The translations under genes and the position numbers were made by a program. Below the pieces are notes generated by a model. That model did no database searches and was not told where the DNA came from. It worked only from the letters and a program-made list of their open reading frames with translations. DNA of 64,000 bases from Bradyrhizobium diazoefficiens (lineage in GTDB: Bacteria > Pseudomonadota > Alphaproteobacteria > Rhizobiales > Xanthobacteraceae), in NCBI RefSeq assembly GCF_016616235.1, contig NZ_CP067100.1, positions 5,391,001-5,455,000 on the forward strand, read 5' to 3'. Each line of letters starts with the position of its first letter. Within the stretch, counting starts at the first letter, position 1. Shown piece after piece: positions 58,795 to 64,000 of this stretch.

Positions 58795-58835
58795 TTGACA
58801 CGGTTTTGCCACCGGTGCGATAGTACGAATCGTAC
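58795..58835 (+). promoter_or_regulatory. Candidate promoter/operator of the stressosome operon
   Basis: TTGACA (58795-58800), 18-base spacer, GATAGT (58819-58824), then the palindrome GTACGA-A-TCGTAC (58823-58835) overlapping the -10 box. It lies about 140 bases upstream of rsbR, and no other gene fits between. The palindrome could be a repressor site. Box quality is moderate. Confidence 0.45.
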
Positions 58836-58970: not shown

Positions 58971-59924
58971 ATGTCGGACCAACAATCCAGGCTGCAATCA
59001 TCTTCCATCCCGCTCAACGAGGCCGAGGTCGATCGCCGCAAGAGAATCGTCGACCTGTCGGGCGAGGACATCTCACGTATCGTCACGCTGCGGAACATGG
59101 TCGCGGAACACACCAGCCGCTACGTCGACGCCTTCTTCCGCCATCTCGATGATCTCGGCGAGGCACCAGCCCTGTTCGGCAAGCGCGAAGTCCTGGAAGA
59201 GGCCAAGCGCCGCAAACGCGAGCATCTCGCGGCAATGACCGCCGCTCAATATGATCGCAACTATGTCGAGCAGCGGGTCGCGCTGGCCCTGCTTTACAGC
59301 CGGCACGGCGTATCGACACCCGTGTTTCTCGGCGCGTTCCACCACTTGCTGCGGGCGCTCGGAAACGACATCATGAAAAGCGTGAAGGATCCGAACGACG
59401 CCTTCCAGCGCTTCATATCGCTGAAGAAGGTGGCATTCTTCGACATTGGCATCATGACGGATGTGCTGATCAGTGAACGCGAGCGCACCATCAACCTTCA
59501 GCAGGACGCGATCCGCGAGCTATCCACGCCCGTTCTCCAGATCCGCGAAGGGCTGCTGATTCTCCCGATCATCGGCATGATCGACTCCCAGCGCGCGAAA
59601 CAACTGACGGATGGACTTTTGCGAAGCATTCGCGCGAACCGGGCCAGAATGGTGGTGATGGACATCACCGGCGTCGCTGCGGTCGATTCCAAGGTCGCCA
59701 ATCACCTGATTCAGACGATCGCCGCGGCTCGGCTGATGGGCAGCACCGTGATCGTTACCGGCCTGTCCGCCGACGTTGCGCAGGCGCTGGTCGCGCTCGG
59801 CGTCGACCTCGGCAAGATCAGCACGACCGGAGATCTTCAGAGTGGACTGGAGGAAGCAGAGCGGATGCTCGGCTACCGGGTCGTTCGGACGAACGAGACG
59901 ACGGGGCCACGCCTTTCGGCATAG
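58971..59924 (+). CDS. rsbR: Stressosome scaffold RsbR, globin-like sensor plus STAS domain
   Basis: A 317-residue protein. Residues about 15-165 form a globin-coupled-sensor type helical domain; YSRHGVSTPVFLGAF (His112) lies where the proximal heme His of HemAT-like sensors sits, so heme binding is plausible (inference). A helix linker (about 165-190) leads to a STAS domain. The two sites corresponding to the threonines phosphorylated by RsbT in Bacillus RsbRA are serines here (Ser206 in GMIDSQRAKQ, Ser240 in VDSKVANH). ATG 58971 has AGGAGG four bases upstream. First gene of the operon; RsbR and RsbS build the stressosome core. Confidence 0.9.
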   Translation: MSDQQSRLQSSSIPLNEAEVDRRKRIVDLSGEDISRIVTLRNMVAEHTSRYVDAFFRHLDDLGEAPALFGKREVLEEAKRRKREHLAAMTAAQYDRNYVEQRVALALLYSRHGVSTPVFLGAFHHLLRALGNDIMKSVKDPNDAFQRFISLKKVAFFDIGIMTDVLISERERTINLQQDAIRELSTPVLQIREGLLILPIIGMIDSQRAKQLTDGLLRSIRANRARMVVMDITGVAAVDSKVANHLIQTIAAARLMGSTVIVTGLSADVAQALVALGVDLGKISTTGDLQSGLEEAERMLGYRVVRTNETTGPRLSA

Positions 59925-59934
59925 AGGACGCGCC

Positions 59935-60309
59935 ATGGCGATCCCCATCCTGAAGCAAGGCGATGTCCTGATCGCAAGCCTTCAGGCCGCTCCGACCGAT
60001 CAGGATCTGATCCAGCTCAAGGACGAGCTGGCCGAGAGGATCGGTCACTTCCGTTCGCGCATCGTCGCGATCGACGTCAGTGCGCTTGACGTGATGGATT
60101 CCTTCGCGACACGAACGTTGAGGAGCATCGCTCACGCGACCAAGCTGCGCGGCGCCAATACGGTGATCGTAGGCATCCAGCCCGACGTCGCATTTGCGAT
60201 GGTCCAGCTCGGGCTCACCCTTGACGGCATCGAAACCGCGCTCGATCTCGATGAAGGCCTGGCGCTGATGCGCGCGCAGCCGGACGGAGGAGCATCCGGT
60301 GACCGCTGA
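59935..60309 (+). CDS. rsbS: Stressosome scaffold RsbS (STAS only)
   Basis: A 124-residue single STAS-domain protein that together with RsbR forms the shell holding RsbT. The phosphorylatable Ser lies in DVMDSFATRTLRSIA (near 59), matching the known RsbS site in VDSF. It contains GIQPDVAFAMVQLGL, the standard STAS helix. ATG 59935 is 10 bases after rsbR; the stop overlaps rsbT by 11 bases. Confidence 0.93.
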   Translation: MAIPILKQGDVLIASLQAAPTDQDLIQLKDELAERIGHFRSRIVAIDVSALDVMDSFATRTLRSIAHATKLRGANTVIVGIQPDVAFAMVQLGLTLDGIETALDLDEGLALMRAQPDGGASGDR

Positions 60310-60703
60310 CGCCACCCGCGTTGCCATCAGACATGACGGCGACATCGTGGAGGCGCGGCAGAAGGGGCGTGAGCTGGCGCAGCAGATCGGATTTACGGGC
60401 AGCGACCTGACGCTCATCGCGACGGCGATCTCGGAAATTGCGCGAAACATCGTGGTATATGCCGGCCATGGGAACATCGATCTCAGCATCACCGAGAAGA
60501 ATGGCAAGCGTGGCCTGCTCGTCGTTGCCCGGGACGAGGGACCGGGCATCCCCGACATCGAACGCGCCATGCGCGACGGCTACTCCACCGGCAACAGCCT
60601 CGGCCTCGGTCTGCCGGGCTCCAGGCGGCTGATGGACGATTTCGAGATCGACTCGGCGGTCGGACGAGGAACGACCGTGATCATGCGGAAATGGAAGGCA
60701 TGA
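60299..60703 (+). CDS. rsbT: Serine/threonine switch kinase RsbT
   Basis: A 134-residue GHKL kinase that phosphorylates RsbS and RsbR on stress and is then released to act on an RsbU-type partner. The N box AISEIARNIVVYA (about 43-55), DEGPGIPD (near 80) and NSLGLGLPGSRRLMD (near 100) are intact. GTG 60299 start; it overlaps rsbS at one end and the phosphatase at the other. Confidence 0.93.
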   Translation: MTADATRVAIRHDGDIVEARQKGRELAQQIGFTGSDLTLIATAISEIARNIVVYAGHGNIDLSITEKNGKRGLLVVARDEGPGIPDIERAMRDGYSTGNSLGLGLPGSRRLMDDFEIDSAVGRGTTVIMRKWKA

Positions 60704-61326
60704 CCGGGGCACACGATCCCAACGCACGCGCGGGCCCCGTCGAATGGGGCGTGGCGTCCCGCGCGTTGCGCGGCCAACCGGAATCGGGCGACCTGCATTT
60801 CGTCGAAGCATTTTCGGGAGGCGTGCTGATCGCCGCGATCGACGGCCTCGGGCACGGCCCGGAGGCGGCGCTCGCATCGCGCATGGCCGCGGCGACCCTG
60901 CATGACCATCTCGGCGAACCCGTCACGACCTTGATGGAGCGATGCCACGCCGCGCTGCAGAAGAGTCGCGGCGTCGTGCTGAGCGTCGCGATCATCGAGG
61001 CGCGGGGTCGGGAGCTGACCTGGCTGGGCGTCGGAAATGTCGACGGCACGTTGTATCGCGCCAACGCAGTCCCGCCGCGCGAGTCGCTGCCGCACCGGGG
61101 CGGCGTCGTCGGCTATCAAATTCCGTCGCTTCGTCAGGCGACGCTTCCGCTCGCTGCCGGCGATACGCTTGTCTTCGCGACAGACGGCATCGACAGCGCC
61201 TTCAGCATGGAGTCTCCGATCGGTTGGCGCCCGCAAGGGGCCGCCGACCACATCCTGCGAAGCTACGGCAAGGACACCGATGACGCTCTCGTCCTTGTCG
61301 CCCGCGTGATCGGGGATGTTCCATGA
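60700..61326 (+). CDS. rsbX: Stressosome phosphatase RsbX-like (PP2C/SpoIIE fold)
   Basis: A 208-residue PP2C-type phosphatase expected to remove phosphate from RsbS/RsbR and reset the stressosome. Metal-binding aspartates appear in AAIDGLGHGPEAALAS (near 48) and FATDGIDSAFS (near 170). ATG 60700 forms an ATGA overlap with rsbT; ATG 60691 is three codons earlier and also possible. No sensor domain, unlike RsbU, so the RsbX role is the better match. Its stop overlaps the next kinase gene. Confidence 0.88.
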   Translation: MTGAHDPNARAGPVEWGVASRALRGQPESGDLHFVEAFSGGVLIAAIDGLGHGPEAALASRMAAATLHDHLGEPVTTLMERCHAALQKSRGVVLSVAIIEARGRELTWLGVGNVDGTLYRANAVPPRESLPHRGGVVGYQIPSLRQATLPLAAGDTLVFATDGIDSAFSMESPIGWRPQGAADHILRSYGKDTDDALVLVARVIGDVP

Positions 61327-62330
61327 CCCCGACGCGAGAGGAGATTCGCAGGGAATATGCCGGAAGTCTCGGCGGCTATCTGGTCGAGGCCGGCGAAGCC
61401 GCCCGATTGCACGCCCACGAACTCGGACGCAAGGCGCTTGCGGGCGGTGTCAGCGTGCTCGACATCGTCGCGCTTCATCATGAGGCACTTGCGGTATTGG
61501 CGCGCTCCGGATCGCTGCGGCTCGACCGGGCCGCGGAATTCCTGGCCGAGAGCCTTTCGCCCTTTGAAATGTCCATGCGCGGCTATCGCGAGGCCAATCG
61601 GCTGCTTTCCGTCGCGAACGCGGACCTGCTTCAGGCCAAGGCCGCAACCGACGCGGCCAATCGCGAGCTCGAAGCGTTCAGCTATTCGGTGGCGCACGAT
61701 CTGCGTGCGCCGTTGCGCAGCATCGACGGCTTCAGCCAAGCGGTGCTGGAGGATTGCGCCGAAGCGCTCGATGAGGCCGGGAAACGCCATCTGGGTTACG
61801 TGCGCGAAGCGGCGCAGGACATGGCCGCCCTGATCGACGGCTTGCTCAGCCTGTCGCGCGTGACGCGGAGCGAACTGCGCCGCGAGGCGATCGACCTTGC
61901 GGGGCTCGCGCGCGGCGTCCTTGCGCAACTCCAGCGAACGGCCCCCGGCCGCGTCGTGGAGACGGTGATCGCCGACGACCTGACCGCGCACGGCGATGCG
62001 CGGCTGCTGCAGAGTCTGCTGGAGAACCTGCTCGGAAACGCCTGGAAGTTCACGCGCGACCGCGCGGCCGCGAGGATCGAAGTAGGCTGCCTGACGCACA
62101 ACGGCCAATACATCTACTTTGTGCGCGACAACGGCGCCGGCTTCGATATGGCTTATGCCGACAAGCTGTTCCGCGCGTTCCAGCGGCTGCATTCAGCAGC
62201 CGAATTCGAAGGGACCGGCATCGGTCTGGCGACGGTGCAGCGGATCGTGAAGCGCCATGGCGGACGAATCTGGGCCGAGAGCGAAGTCGGACGCGGCGCA
62301 ACTTTCTTCTTTACACTTTGGAGCACCTGA
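61323..62330 (+). CDS. Histidine kinase with RsbU-type N-terminal domain
   Basis: A 335-residue soluble kinase. Residues about 8-80 (EYAGSLGGYLVEAGEAARLH, then VLDIVALHHEALAVL) look like the N-terminal domain by which RsbU is bound and activated by RsbT. A HisKA follows with FSYSVAHDLRAPLRSIDGFS (His125), then an HATPase (ENLLGNAWKFT, DNGAGFD, GTGIGLATV). So RsbT could switch on a histidine kinase instead of a PP2C phosphatase (inference from domain order). ATGA overlap with rsbX. Confidence 0.85.
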   Translation: MTPTREEIRREYAGSLGGYLVEAGEAARLHAHELGRKALAGGVSVLDIVALHHEALAVLARSGSLRLDRAAEFLAESLSPFEMSMRGYREANRLLSVANADLLQAKAATDAANRELEAFSYSVAHDLRAPLRSIDGFSQAVLEDCAEALDEAGKRHLGYVREAAQDMAALIDGLLSLSRVTRSELRREAIDLAGLARGVLAQLQRTAPGRVVETVIADDLTAHGDARLLQSLLENLLGNAWKFTRDRAAARIEVGCLTHNGQYIYFVRDNGAGFDMAYADKLFRAFQRLHSAAEFEGTGIGLATVQRIVKRHGGRIWAESEVGRGATFFFTLWST

Positions 62331-62331
62331 G

Positions 62332-62793
62332 ATGGCGGCTGAGGCAGCGATGTTCCATGACAAGCGCATCCTGCTGGTCGAGGACAACCCCAAGGATGAG
62401 GCCCTGACCCGGCGTGCCCTCCAGAAGCACAACTTCCAGGCCGCCGTCGTGGTGGCGCGTGACGGGGCCGAGGCGCTCGACTATCTGCTCGGATCGGACG
62501 GCACCCCCGCAGGGGCTTTGCCGCAATTGGTGCTGCTCGACCTCAAGCTTCCCAAAATCGACGGACTGGAAGTGCTGCGCCGCATACGCGCCAACGAGAC
62601 CACGCGGCTCTTGCCCGTCGTGATCCTGACCTCTTCCACGGAAGAGCGGGACATCCTGGAAGGATATCGGCTCGGCACCAACAGCTATGTGCGCAAGCCC
62701 GTCGATTTCGTCGCGTTCACCGAAGCCGTGCGGCAGCTCGGGCTGTACTGGCTTCTTCTCAACACCATGCCGCCGCTGCGCGGAACATCCTGA
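62332..62793 (+). CDS. Single-domain response regulator (CheY/Rcp1-like)
   Basis: A 153-residue receiver with no output domain: LLVEDNPKDEALTRRAL, phospho-acceptor Asp70 in VLLDLKLPKIDG, ILTSSTEERD and VRKPVDFVAF. It begins at ATG 62332 one base after the kinase stop (an ATG at 62350 is an alternative). As a receiver next to a bacteriophytochrome-style kinase, it probably takes phosphate from His125 of that kinase and passes it on. Confidence 0.9.
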   Translation: MAAEAAMFHDKRILLVEDNPKDEALTRRALQKHNFQAAVVVARDGAEALDYLLGSDGTPAGALPQLVLLDLKLPKIDGLEVLRRIRANETTRLLPVVILTSSTEERDILEGYRLGTNSYVRKPVDFVAFTEAVRQLGLYWLLLNTMPPLRGTS

Positions 62794-62808
62794 GCGCGGG
62801 AACTTCCG

Positions 62809-64000
62809 GTGACAAAGCTGCTCAAGGCATTGATCGTCGAAGACAATGAGCGCGACGCCATATTGTTGCTGCGCGAGCTCAATCGCGGCGGATATGAACT
62901 CAATTCGGAGCGGGTCGAGACGGCGGAGGCCCTGAATGCCGCGCTCGACCGCGAGGACTGGGACATTGTGCTCTCCGACTATTCAATGCCGCGGTTCAGC
63001 GCGCCGGCCGCATTGGCGCTGGTGCGCCAGCGCGGCTTCGACCTTCCCTTCATCATCGTTTCGGGAACGGTCGGCGAAGAGACCGCAGTCGAGGCCATGC
63101 GCGCCGGCGCCAATGATTTCATGCCCAAAGGCGCGATGGCGCGCCTGTTGCCGGCGATCGATCGCGAATTGCGCGAGGCTGCTGTGCGCGCCGAGCGCAA
63201 GAAGATGCGCGAGCAGCTGCTGATTTCCGAACGCATGGCTTCGGTCGGCATGCTCTCGGCGAGCGTTGCGCACGAAATCAACAACCCGCTGGCGGTCGTC
63301 CTGGCCAATCTCGAGATTGTCCTGCAACACCTGGAAGCGCCGGCCGCCCCGCCCCTCGATGTGCTGATCGGACCGTTGCGCGATGCGCACGAGGCAGCCG
63401 AACGGGTCAGCCATATCGCCCGCGATCTCAAGATCTTCTCGCGTTCATCCAACGAGGAGCAGCGCGGACCGGTCGATATCGAGCGCGTGCTGGAATCGGC
63501 CCTGCGAATGGCCTCCAACGAGATCCGACATCGCGCGAGTGTCGTCAGACAATACGACAAGCTCCCTCCGGTCCATGGAAACGAGGCGCGGCTCGGCCAG
63601 GTCTTCCTCAATCTGCTCGTCAACGCGGCCCAGGCCATCCCCGAGGGCCGCGCCAGCGAGAACAGGATCACGCTGTCGATACGCGGCGGCGAGAACAATC
63701 GGGCGGTGGTCGAGATCAGCGATACCGGCACGGGCATGCCGCCGGAGGTTGCCTCCCGCGTCTTCGATCCGTTCTTCACCACCAAGGCCGAGGGCGTCGG
63801 CACCGGCCTCGGCCTGGCCATCTGCCACCGTATCGTCTCGAGTCTCGGCGGCGACATCTCCGTCGAGAGCCGCCCCGGACACGGCACGGCATTCAGCGTG
63901 TCGCTGCCGCATGCCGGGACGCCGCTGCCCAAGGCCGAAGCTCCCGTGGCGGCGCAGAGCGCCAAACGCAGGGGCCGGGTTCTCGTCGTCGACGACGAAC
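62809..64000 (+). CDS. Hybrid receiver-histidine kinase-receiver protein (cut by right edge)
   Basis: GTG 62809 opens a frame to the window end (at least 397 residues). An N-terminal receiver (LIVEDNERDA, Asp57 in VLSDYSMPRF, then VSGTVGEE) is followed by a HisKA with LSASVAHEINNPLAVVLANL (His155), an HATPase (LLVNAAQAIPEG, DTGTGMP, GVGTGLGLAI) and the beginning of a second receiver (RVLVVDDE). It lies 15 bases after the single-domain regulator, so it belongs to the same operon and is likely the output or relay stage. The end is not seen. Confidence 0.88.
   Translation, partial: MTKLLKALIVEDNERDAILLLRELNRGGYELNSERVETAEALNAALDREDWDIVLSDYSMPRFSAPAALALVRQRGFDLPFIIVSGTVGEETAVEAMRAGANDFMPKGAMARLLPAIDRELREAAVRAERKKMREQLLISERMASVGMLSASVAHEINNPLAVVLANLEIVLQHLEAPAAPPLDVLIGPLRDAHEAAERVSHIARDLKIFSRSSNEEQRGPVDIERVLESALRMASNEIRHRASVVRQYDKLPPVHGNEARLGQVFLNLLVNAAQAIPEGRASENRITLSIRGGENNRAVVEISDTGTGMPPEVASRVFDPFFTTKAEGVGTGLGLAICHRIVSSLGGDISVESRPGHGTAFSVSLPHAGTPLPKAEAPVAAQSAKRRGRVLVVDDE

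Follow-up and report, generated by a model that had tools for sequence, protein, structure and literature searches.

What does a stressosome control when no sigma-B gene accompanies it? The question is raised by a locus of Bradyrhizobium diazoefficiens, whose genus is known for soil and root-nodule bacteria, at the right end of a stretch of 64,000 bases (the window; bases 5391001-5455000 of a one-contig genome, NZ_CP067100.1, of 7,668,734 bases and 100% completeness). From window position 58971, genes for RsbR, RsbS, RsbT and RsbX are followed on the same strand by genes for a histidine kinase, a receiver and a hybrid kinase. We give a probability of about three in four to the reading that this run is a stressosome-to-phosphorelay operon in which docking of RsbT on an RsbU_N domain of the histidine kinase would serve as the switch. 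The original prediction, a first reading of the sequence, had described a complete stressosome core and a two-component relay in one operon; gene set and relay are borne out, and what that reading missed is the RsbU_N domain on the kinase, the protoglobin domain of RsbR and the altered heme residues within it. The genes are:

58971-59924, + strand, RsbR: ATG start, GGAGG just upstream
59935-60309, + strand, RsbS: ATG start, 10-base gap behind RsbR
60299-60703, + strand, RsbT: GTG start, 11-base overlap with RsbS
60691-61326, + strand, RsbX: ATG start, 13-base overlap with RsbT
61323-62330, + strand, histidine kinase: ATG start, 4-base overlap with RsbX
62332-62793, + strand, receiver: gap of 1 base (ATG at 62332) or 19 bases (ATG at 62350)
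62809-64000 and on to L009:7332, + strand, hybrid kinase: GTG start, 15-base gap, 332 bases beyond the window

Read from their sequence, the seven genes are one operon that continues just past the right window edge. Its junctions, three overlaps and three gaps of 10, 1 (or 19) and 15 bases, are as tight as had been predicted. These starts and junctions are the likely ones, taken from open reading frames, and the Pfam E-values given below were computed on frames read from 58956 (RsbR), 59926 (RsbS) and 62341 (receiver).

The stressosome genes and the docking domain on the kinase

The observations that carry our reading lie in the histidine kinase, which joins an RsbU_N domain (residues 11-83; PF08673, 8.6e-9), a linker, a HisKA domain with His125 (PF00512, 6.1e-10) and an HATPase_c domain (PF02518, 7e-23), so that the docking domain and the kinase core stand within one protein. 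The earlier statement that rsbU is missing thus holds for the RsbU phosphatase and fails for its N-terminal domain. This kinase is the sole RsbU_N match in the genome; among 14 control genomes B. subtilis alone has one, and of 397 genomes drawn evenly from the order, the domain was found in this one only, with a family model that may overlook diverged copies. Kinase residues 1-116, used as a protein query, returned 118 proteins, 105 with HisKA (PF00512) and 12 with HisKA_3 according to precomputed domains, and a profile of 18 such N-domains matches B. subtilis RsbU (2j70, 2j6z, 1w53 and 2j6y) at 7.7e-7 to 1.4e-5. RsbU Glu24, a contact of RsbT (PMC12143880), aligns with Glu25 of the kinase, which is invariant in 18/18 rows and kept in at least 90% of a 61-row alignment.

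An AlphaFold2 model of the kinase monomer (61 sequences, mean pLDDT 85.5, pTM 0.58) predicts a single helix of 82 residues (67-148), reaching from the last RsbU_N helix through the linker to the helix of His125; per ten residues, pLDDT drops to 73-83 in residues 101-130. Because the last RsbU_N helix runs unbroken into the His125 helix, docking would be expected to change kinase activity. The same helix geometry has been proposed for RsbU_N proteins, among them one in which RsbU_N is likewise joined to a histidine kinase by a helical linker (PMC12143880); the protein is called NreB (NreB-like) there, whereas the window kinase has a HisKA core, and where kinases are concerned the modular-linker idea of that work rests on models. 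By sequence, the closest solved relative of our kinase core is 8f71, a bacteriophytochrome kinase domain. As a side observation, the NCBIfam models for LvrA and LvrB of Leptospira give the kinase 220 bits and the hybrid kinase 200, far short of the cut-offs of 1200 and 500, which suggests a related kinase pair.

The stressosome gene set (RsbRST with RsbX) reads as complete and intact. RsbS is a lone STAS domain (PF01740, 3.4e-11; Listeria RsbS 6qcm, 2.6e-22) that retains Ser56, counted from 59935, in a D-S-F motif, and Ser206 and Ser240 of RsbR each stand where Listeria RsbR has a Thr; we take all three serines to be phosphosites. RsbT is a GHKL switch kinase (PF13581, 2.8e-13; SpoIIAB 1th8, 5.1e-10). 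The residue check proposed in the original prediction came out in its favour, since the alignment with SpoIIAB keeps the S-E and N of the N box and the DEGxGIPDIE box, and these ATP-site motifs are common to 38 aligned RsbT-like rows, the window's own included. In an ARx.GR motif the A, R, G and R each reach at least 90% of the same 38 rows; we presume its arginines to be Arg19 and Arg23 of B. subtilis RsbT. Arg19 and Arg23 contact RsbU (PMC12143880). RsbX is a single-domain PP2C phosphatase (PF07228, 1.2e-12; 3zt9, 9.8e-17; RsbX 3w40, 5.5e-10) in which alignment with 3w40 finds the metal-binding Asp motifs GD, DGLG and TDG retained. The Ser/Thr sites of the STAS proteins, the ATP-site motifs of RsbT and the metal-binding motifs of RsbX are therefore all in place. 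Behind the kinase, the receiver is a single domain (PF00072, 4.7e-21), and the full hybrid kinase has 507 amino acids in the order REC-HisKA-HATPase_c-REC (PF00072 in two stretches, PF00512 and PF02518).

A sigma-B output finds no support. The extension to the right that had been called for reveals a convergent M20 peptidase gene 9 bases from the hybrid kinase, then GT87 and HerA genes; rsbV, rsbW, a full rsbU and sigB are absent from the proteins scanned there, and a SigB/RsbV/RsbW set beyond the right edge is accordingly rejected as the output, in agreement with the prediction for the locus. Across the whole genome the SigB/F/G model TIGR02980 has nine matches, none above the cut-off (best 137 against 234 bits), the best of them in a frame of 712 residues that, by its length, we take to be RpoD. 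The partner-switching output of rsbV, rsbW and sigB is thus missing from the locus, no genome-wide search for rsbW having been made. STAS has six matches in the genome, namely RsbR, RsbS and frames of 572, 628, 785 and 136 residues; the first three of these frames are presumably transporters, judged by length, and the match in the 136-residue frame lies elsewhere in the genome (G000:C1:6301047-6301295). The arrangement shares RsbR, RsbS, RsbT, RsbX and the docking domain of RsbU with the RsbRSTUVW-SigB system of B. subtilis; unlike that system, it carries RsbU_N on a histidine kinase, where B. subtilis has the domain on a PP2C phosphatase; RsbV, RsbW and SigB are missing from the locus, and the SigB/F/G matches of the genome all stay under the cut-off.

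RsbU_N loci in other genomes and a second Bradyrhizobium stressosome

Scanning genome contigs with an RsbU_N alignment gave 42 loci from many phyla, a sample biased toward kinases by a query built from kinase N-domains. RsbR, RsbS, RsbT and RsbX are all present in 35 of the 42, and RsbT in 37. The 36 RsbU_N-region proteins scanned for domains comprise 33 histidine kinases (13 HisKA, 20 HisKA_3) and 3 PP2C phosphatases; L074, L077, L080, L083 and L084 lay outside that scan, and L044 is a HisKA kinase by BLAST. Several HisKA_3 kinases carry PAS domains, and the HisKA protein of L076 is cut before its ATPase domain. The next frame, of 209-238 amino acids, has a receiver-like match in 18 of the 20 HisKA_3 loci (the exceptions are L052, where the contig ends, and L081), and the sole such frame that was scanned, in L074, consists of REC with a LuxR-type HTH. 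The gene order of the window operon recurs in L044, a Bradyrhizobium metagenome-assembled genome (MAG). A kinase-receiver-hybrid trio also follows RSTX in L050, a Chloroflexi locus with a different RsbR sensor, where in the same position the kinase core is 60% and the receiver 64% identical to the window's; an OmpR-type DNA-binding regulator ends the L050 operon, and the Bradyrhizobium operon has no such gene.

Three loci stand out by their structure. In L062 (7201-8082), a Methylococcales MAG, the globin frame of RsbR runs into an RsbX-like end and neither RsbS nor RsbT was found ahead of the RsbU_N-PP2C gene, through deletion or assembly error. An Ignavibacteriales RsbU_N-PAS-HisKA protein (L076:9746-11464) has 9.7 kb upstream in which no RsbR, RsbS, RsbT or RsbX was detected. 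A Myxococcales operon (L078:2797-13180) contains two RsbR-like genes, an RsbX-RsbT fusion, an RsbU_N-type kinase and two large hybrid proteins.

Within Bradyrhizobium, RsbR has matches at 1e-10 in 17 of 265 genomes; four are full-length (G000, the genome of the window, with G425, G426 and G561), one (G514) has 50% identity over residues 63-309, and in the 12 others only the STAS part matches. The region of G514 (L031:2017-5764) holds a fifth globin-type Bradyrhizobium stressosome, with an ordinary proximal His; its RsbU_N protein has PAS domains and no kinase core in its frame, and its RsbS and RsbT frames look short (88 and 110 amino acids), which may point to a break or a misassembly in this region. 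The operon lies between araD and M20 genes in three genomes (G000, G425 and G426), with proteins 87.5-96% identical to the window's, and in G561 it stands among other neighbours. A search with the M20 protein over 31 genomes found 12 loci, those of G000 and G426 with the operon and 10 others. Seven of these 10 show an empty site, araD adjoining M20 at 127-371 bases with no operon between, and three (L102, L104 and L105) have no araD within reach of M20; the pattern may reflect repeated loss or a gain by a single lineage. Base composition does not mark the operon as foreign and gives no proof of transfer, its GC (64.6%) being no different from that of the flanks (64.3% and 63.8%). Third-position GC, a weak sign, is lower in six operon genes (77-81%, without the hybrid kinase) than in the two upstream neighbours (88-90%). 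A plasmid search with RsbR returned 186 records, six covering at least 80% of the query and all below 60% identity, and hence no close relative.

A second type of stressosome occurs in 12 of the 265 genomes (L032-L043). By BLAST it has an RsbT-RsbX fusion in 12/12, and 11/12 encode a protein of 588-609 residues in which an RsbT-like domain lies ahead of a histidine kinase (L042 ends too soon). Separate RsbS and RsbT genes were seen for most loci, overlapping frames having been dropped. Pfam domains, examined for L034 (5974-12445), run RsbRD_N with STAS, STAS, ATPase, ATPase with SpoIIE, ATPase with HisKA, HATPase and REC, REC-HK-REC, and REC, which places three RsbT-like domains within a single operon. 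The fused RsbT-like domain retains SELARN and DxGPGI in six aligned genomes. Its fusion to a kinase is an independent pointer to RsbT-to-kinase signalling, since RsbT would be joined to a kinase by gene fusion in one system and meet a docking domain on a kinase in the other.

Upstream of the window operon lies one further feature:

58795-58824, + strand, candidate sigma-70 promoter TTGACA-N18-GATAGT: 10 of 12 consensus matches, TG ahead of the second hexamer

A looser sigma-70 scan finds two such sites in the region where 0.3 are expected, and the block around the candidate is conserved across four aligned Bradyrhizobium operons; a stricter sigma-70 pattern has no match before rsbR in any of the four. 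An EcfG-type promoter upstream of rsbR is rejected, an EcfG-like pattern having matched in 0/4 operons.

The globin of RsbR and its heme positions

RsbR combines a protoglobin sensor domain (PF11563, 1.6e-20) with STAS (PF01740, 1.9e-12), and its closest solved structure is RsbR of V. vulnificus (7o0i, 3.7e-37). A model of the globin (60 sequences, pLDDT 86.0) matches HemAT (1or4_B; TMt 0.84, rmsd 1.8) and also other globin-coupled sensors. In the HemAT alignment, with residue numbers counted on the printed chain, His123 and Tyr70, which we take to be the proximal and distal heme residues, stand opposite Tyr109 (with no gaps nearby) and Phe56 of RsbR. Among 120 listed of 348 relatives, the protein itself included, the proximal Tyr is present in 120/120 and the distal Phe in 119/120 (Leu in P0188); the close relatives are Bradyrhizobium proteins such as P0127 of B. 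diazoefficiens. With Methylomicrobium RsbR as the query, 732 proteins were found, and distal Tyr and proximal His are kept in 120/120 listed. Each set was chosen by similarity to its own query and contains near-copies, so intermediates may be missed. In the sequence alignment, eighteen positions are more than 85% conserved within each set yet differ between the sets, all but one within the first 166 residues; they include 56, 85, 86, 109, 119, 122, 123 and 126.

A proximal Tyr is known from hemoglobins M Iwate and Hyde Park to hold the iron ferric and to block O2 binding. For this reason the globin of RsbR may be a Tyr-ligated ferric-heme protein, or else heme-free. With H replaced by Y and Y by F at the heme positions, it is unlikely to be an oxygen sensor of the Vibrio type, and any sensing of oxygen probably does not follow the known mode. 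The proximal and distal heme residues have been described for V. brasiliensis RsbR, and all RsbR globins of the Vibrio clade keep His and Tyr (PMC4976288), as does V. vulnificus RsbR in our alignment. The window's RsbR shares the globin fold of this type of oxygen sensor and lacks its proximal His and distal Tyr, and at these positions the window's group departs from the published rule, by which a globin-RsbR retains His and Tyr and senses oxygen. Among the open-licence papers listed for globin sensors with a Tyr or without a proximal His, none deals with this exchange, judged by title.

It is conceivable, and in our judgement unlikely, that a different residue stands in for the proximal His and that the globin remains a heme-binding oxygen sensor. 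It does have the HemAT fold, which other globin-coupled sensors share, and a candidate exists in His85, present in 120/120 listed window-type proteins and aligned with a His in HemAT. However, HemAT His123 itself lies opposite Tyr109 in a gap-free stretch, that Tyr is found in every listed window-type protein, and the distal Tyr has become Phe in 119/120 of them, whereas the Methylomicrobium-like set keeps both residues throughout its 120 listed members.

Among the loci with a globin match, those with F/Y (L044, L045, L047, L048, L051 and L078), together with L085 (Y, its distal column missing), have HisKA kinases in 7/7 cases, and those with Y/H are L053, L062 and L077, with PP2C in L053 and L062 and the protein of L077 unscanned. 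As evidence, this pairing of sensor and output counts for little and comes near to a single event, because there is about one switch on the globin tree: in a tree of the globin domain built without the two heme columns, each group falls on one side of a branch, with 1 change and local support of 91. A STAS-only tree requires 4 changes between the heme-residue states, 2 of them forced by well supported branches; both are unrefined FastTree trees with few columns and long branches. Since the STAS-only tree needs 4 changes, swapped sensor domains or more than one residue switch may have occurred, and a single origin of the exchanged residues is not established.

Taken with the loci, we lean slightly towards a reading in which one globin clade would have fixed the His-to-Tyr and Tyr-to-Phe exchanges, with a Tyr-ligated ferric-heme or heme-free sensor wired to RsbU_N-type HisKA kinases in the loci seen, and in which the second Bradyrhizobium stressosome would have the same wiring by gene fusion. 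The ferric-heme form would read redox state, heme or NO rather than O2, and the heme-free form another ligand. The clade would take in Bradyrhizobium, other alpha- and betaproteobacteria, Nitrospira, Myxococcales and other deltaproteobacteria.

A proposed route from RsbT to a phosphorelay

The docking reading builds on the domains, the gene order, the conserved catalytic motifs, one conserved docking residue, the single RsbU_N match in the genome and the predicted helix continuity. RsbR, with its globin and STAS domains, and RsbS would form a cage that holds RsbT; when the globin reads its signal, RsbT would depart from the cage on phosphorylating the STAS proteins, and RsbX would reset it. 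Free RsbT would dock on RsbU_N of the histidine kinase and stiffen or re-register the dimeric helical rod, altering kinase activity. The single-domain receiver, the hybrid kinase's REC domains or both would then receive the phosphate and hand it on to a partner whose gene lies outside the operon. We propose the assembly of the cage, the release of RsbT, its docking and the activation of the kinase by analogy with B. subtilis, where RsbT activates RsbU by binding (PMC12143880).

Such wiring is known in kind and already in print, as the original prediction anticipated in noting that RsbRST modules can serve other outputs. Alphaproteobacteria are among the bacteria in which HisKA/REC phosphorelays, in some cases with RsbU_N, have been described downstream of RSTX modules (PMC9237108, Heinz et al. 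2022), and an activation mechanism by RsbT has been proposed for RsbU_N kinases (PMC12143880, eLife 2025). The globin-RsbR modules of Heinz et al. resemble the window operon in their close R-S-T-X order, the HisKA and REC proteins that follow, the lack of sigB and the RsbU_N on some downstream proteins of alpha-, beta- and gammaproteobacteria; they differ in that the globin is presented there as heme-binding, whereas the window's heme residues are exchanged, and section 10 of that paper names neither Bradyrhizobium nor this exact gene order. The stressosomes of V. vulnificus and V. brasiliensis likewise have an N-terminal globin on RsbR (PMC9237108, PMC4976288), and V. vulnificus shares the RSTX order with downstream two-component genes; in contrast to the window, the Vibrio RsbR keeps the distal Tyr and proximal His, and the downstream protein D1 of V. 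vulnificus has no detected RsbU_N in that paper's account. None of the open-licence papers found, judged by title and abstract start, has a Bradyrhizobium stressosome as its subject. The fresh parts are the sensor variant and, judged from the open-licence literature, possibly the parallel fusion system.

Several observations weigh against docking as the switch. RsbU Tyr28, on which the binding of RsbT depends in B. subtilis, stands opposite Leu29 of the kinase, so that this contact is not kept. Foldseek with the whole kinase model returned kinase structures and no RsbU in the best 50 of 597 rows, so the call of a docking domain rests on sequence profiles. RsbU_N falls below 1e-4 in the profile-found kinases L066 and L078, and no RsbT was found in five of the 42 loci, namely L079 and L084 (cut at the contig start), L062 (rearranged), and L071 and L076 (unexplained). 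Neither the receiver nor the hybrid kinase carries an output domain, no target turned up, and none of the seven genes encodes a DNA-binding regulator, which agrees with the first reading's view of the target process as open. In V. vulnificus, finally, an interaction of RsbT with D1, in which RsbU_N was not detected, could not be shown according to the passage on that system in PMC9237108.

It would be surprising if RsbT instead acted enzymatically, by Ser/Thr phosphorylation of the kinase or receiver, as suggested for Vibrio D1. Enzymatic action has been proposed for downstream kinases without RsbU_N (PMC9237108), and the window's RsbT is catalytically intact by motif; the window kinase, however, does have RsbU_N, the domain family through which binding of RsbT activates B. 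subtilis RsbU (PMC12143880). Least probable of all is that kinase, receiver and hybrid kinase are passengers, with the kinase sensing alone and the stressosome controlling something else such as PhyR-EcfG (for which no search was made in this analysis), a view that gains from the missing output domains on receiver and hybrid kinase but has against it the overlapping junctions, the whole operon between the same neighbours in three genomes, and RSTX genes beside RsbU_N, the known RsbT dock, in 35/42 loci.

For Bradyrhizobium, docking of RsbT on the kinase would make for a compact system in which the output of the stressosome could be read directly as phosphorylation of a histidine kinase. For the wider family, the globin-type RsbR proteins seen here split into two groups, and the rule that a globin RsbR means an oxygen sensor is not transferable to one of them.

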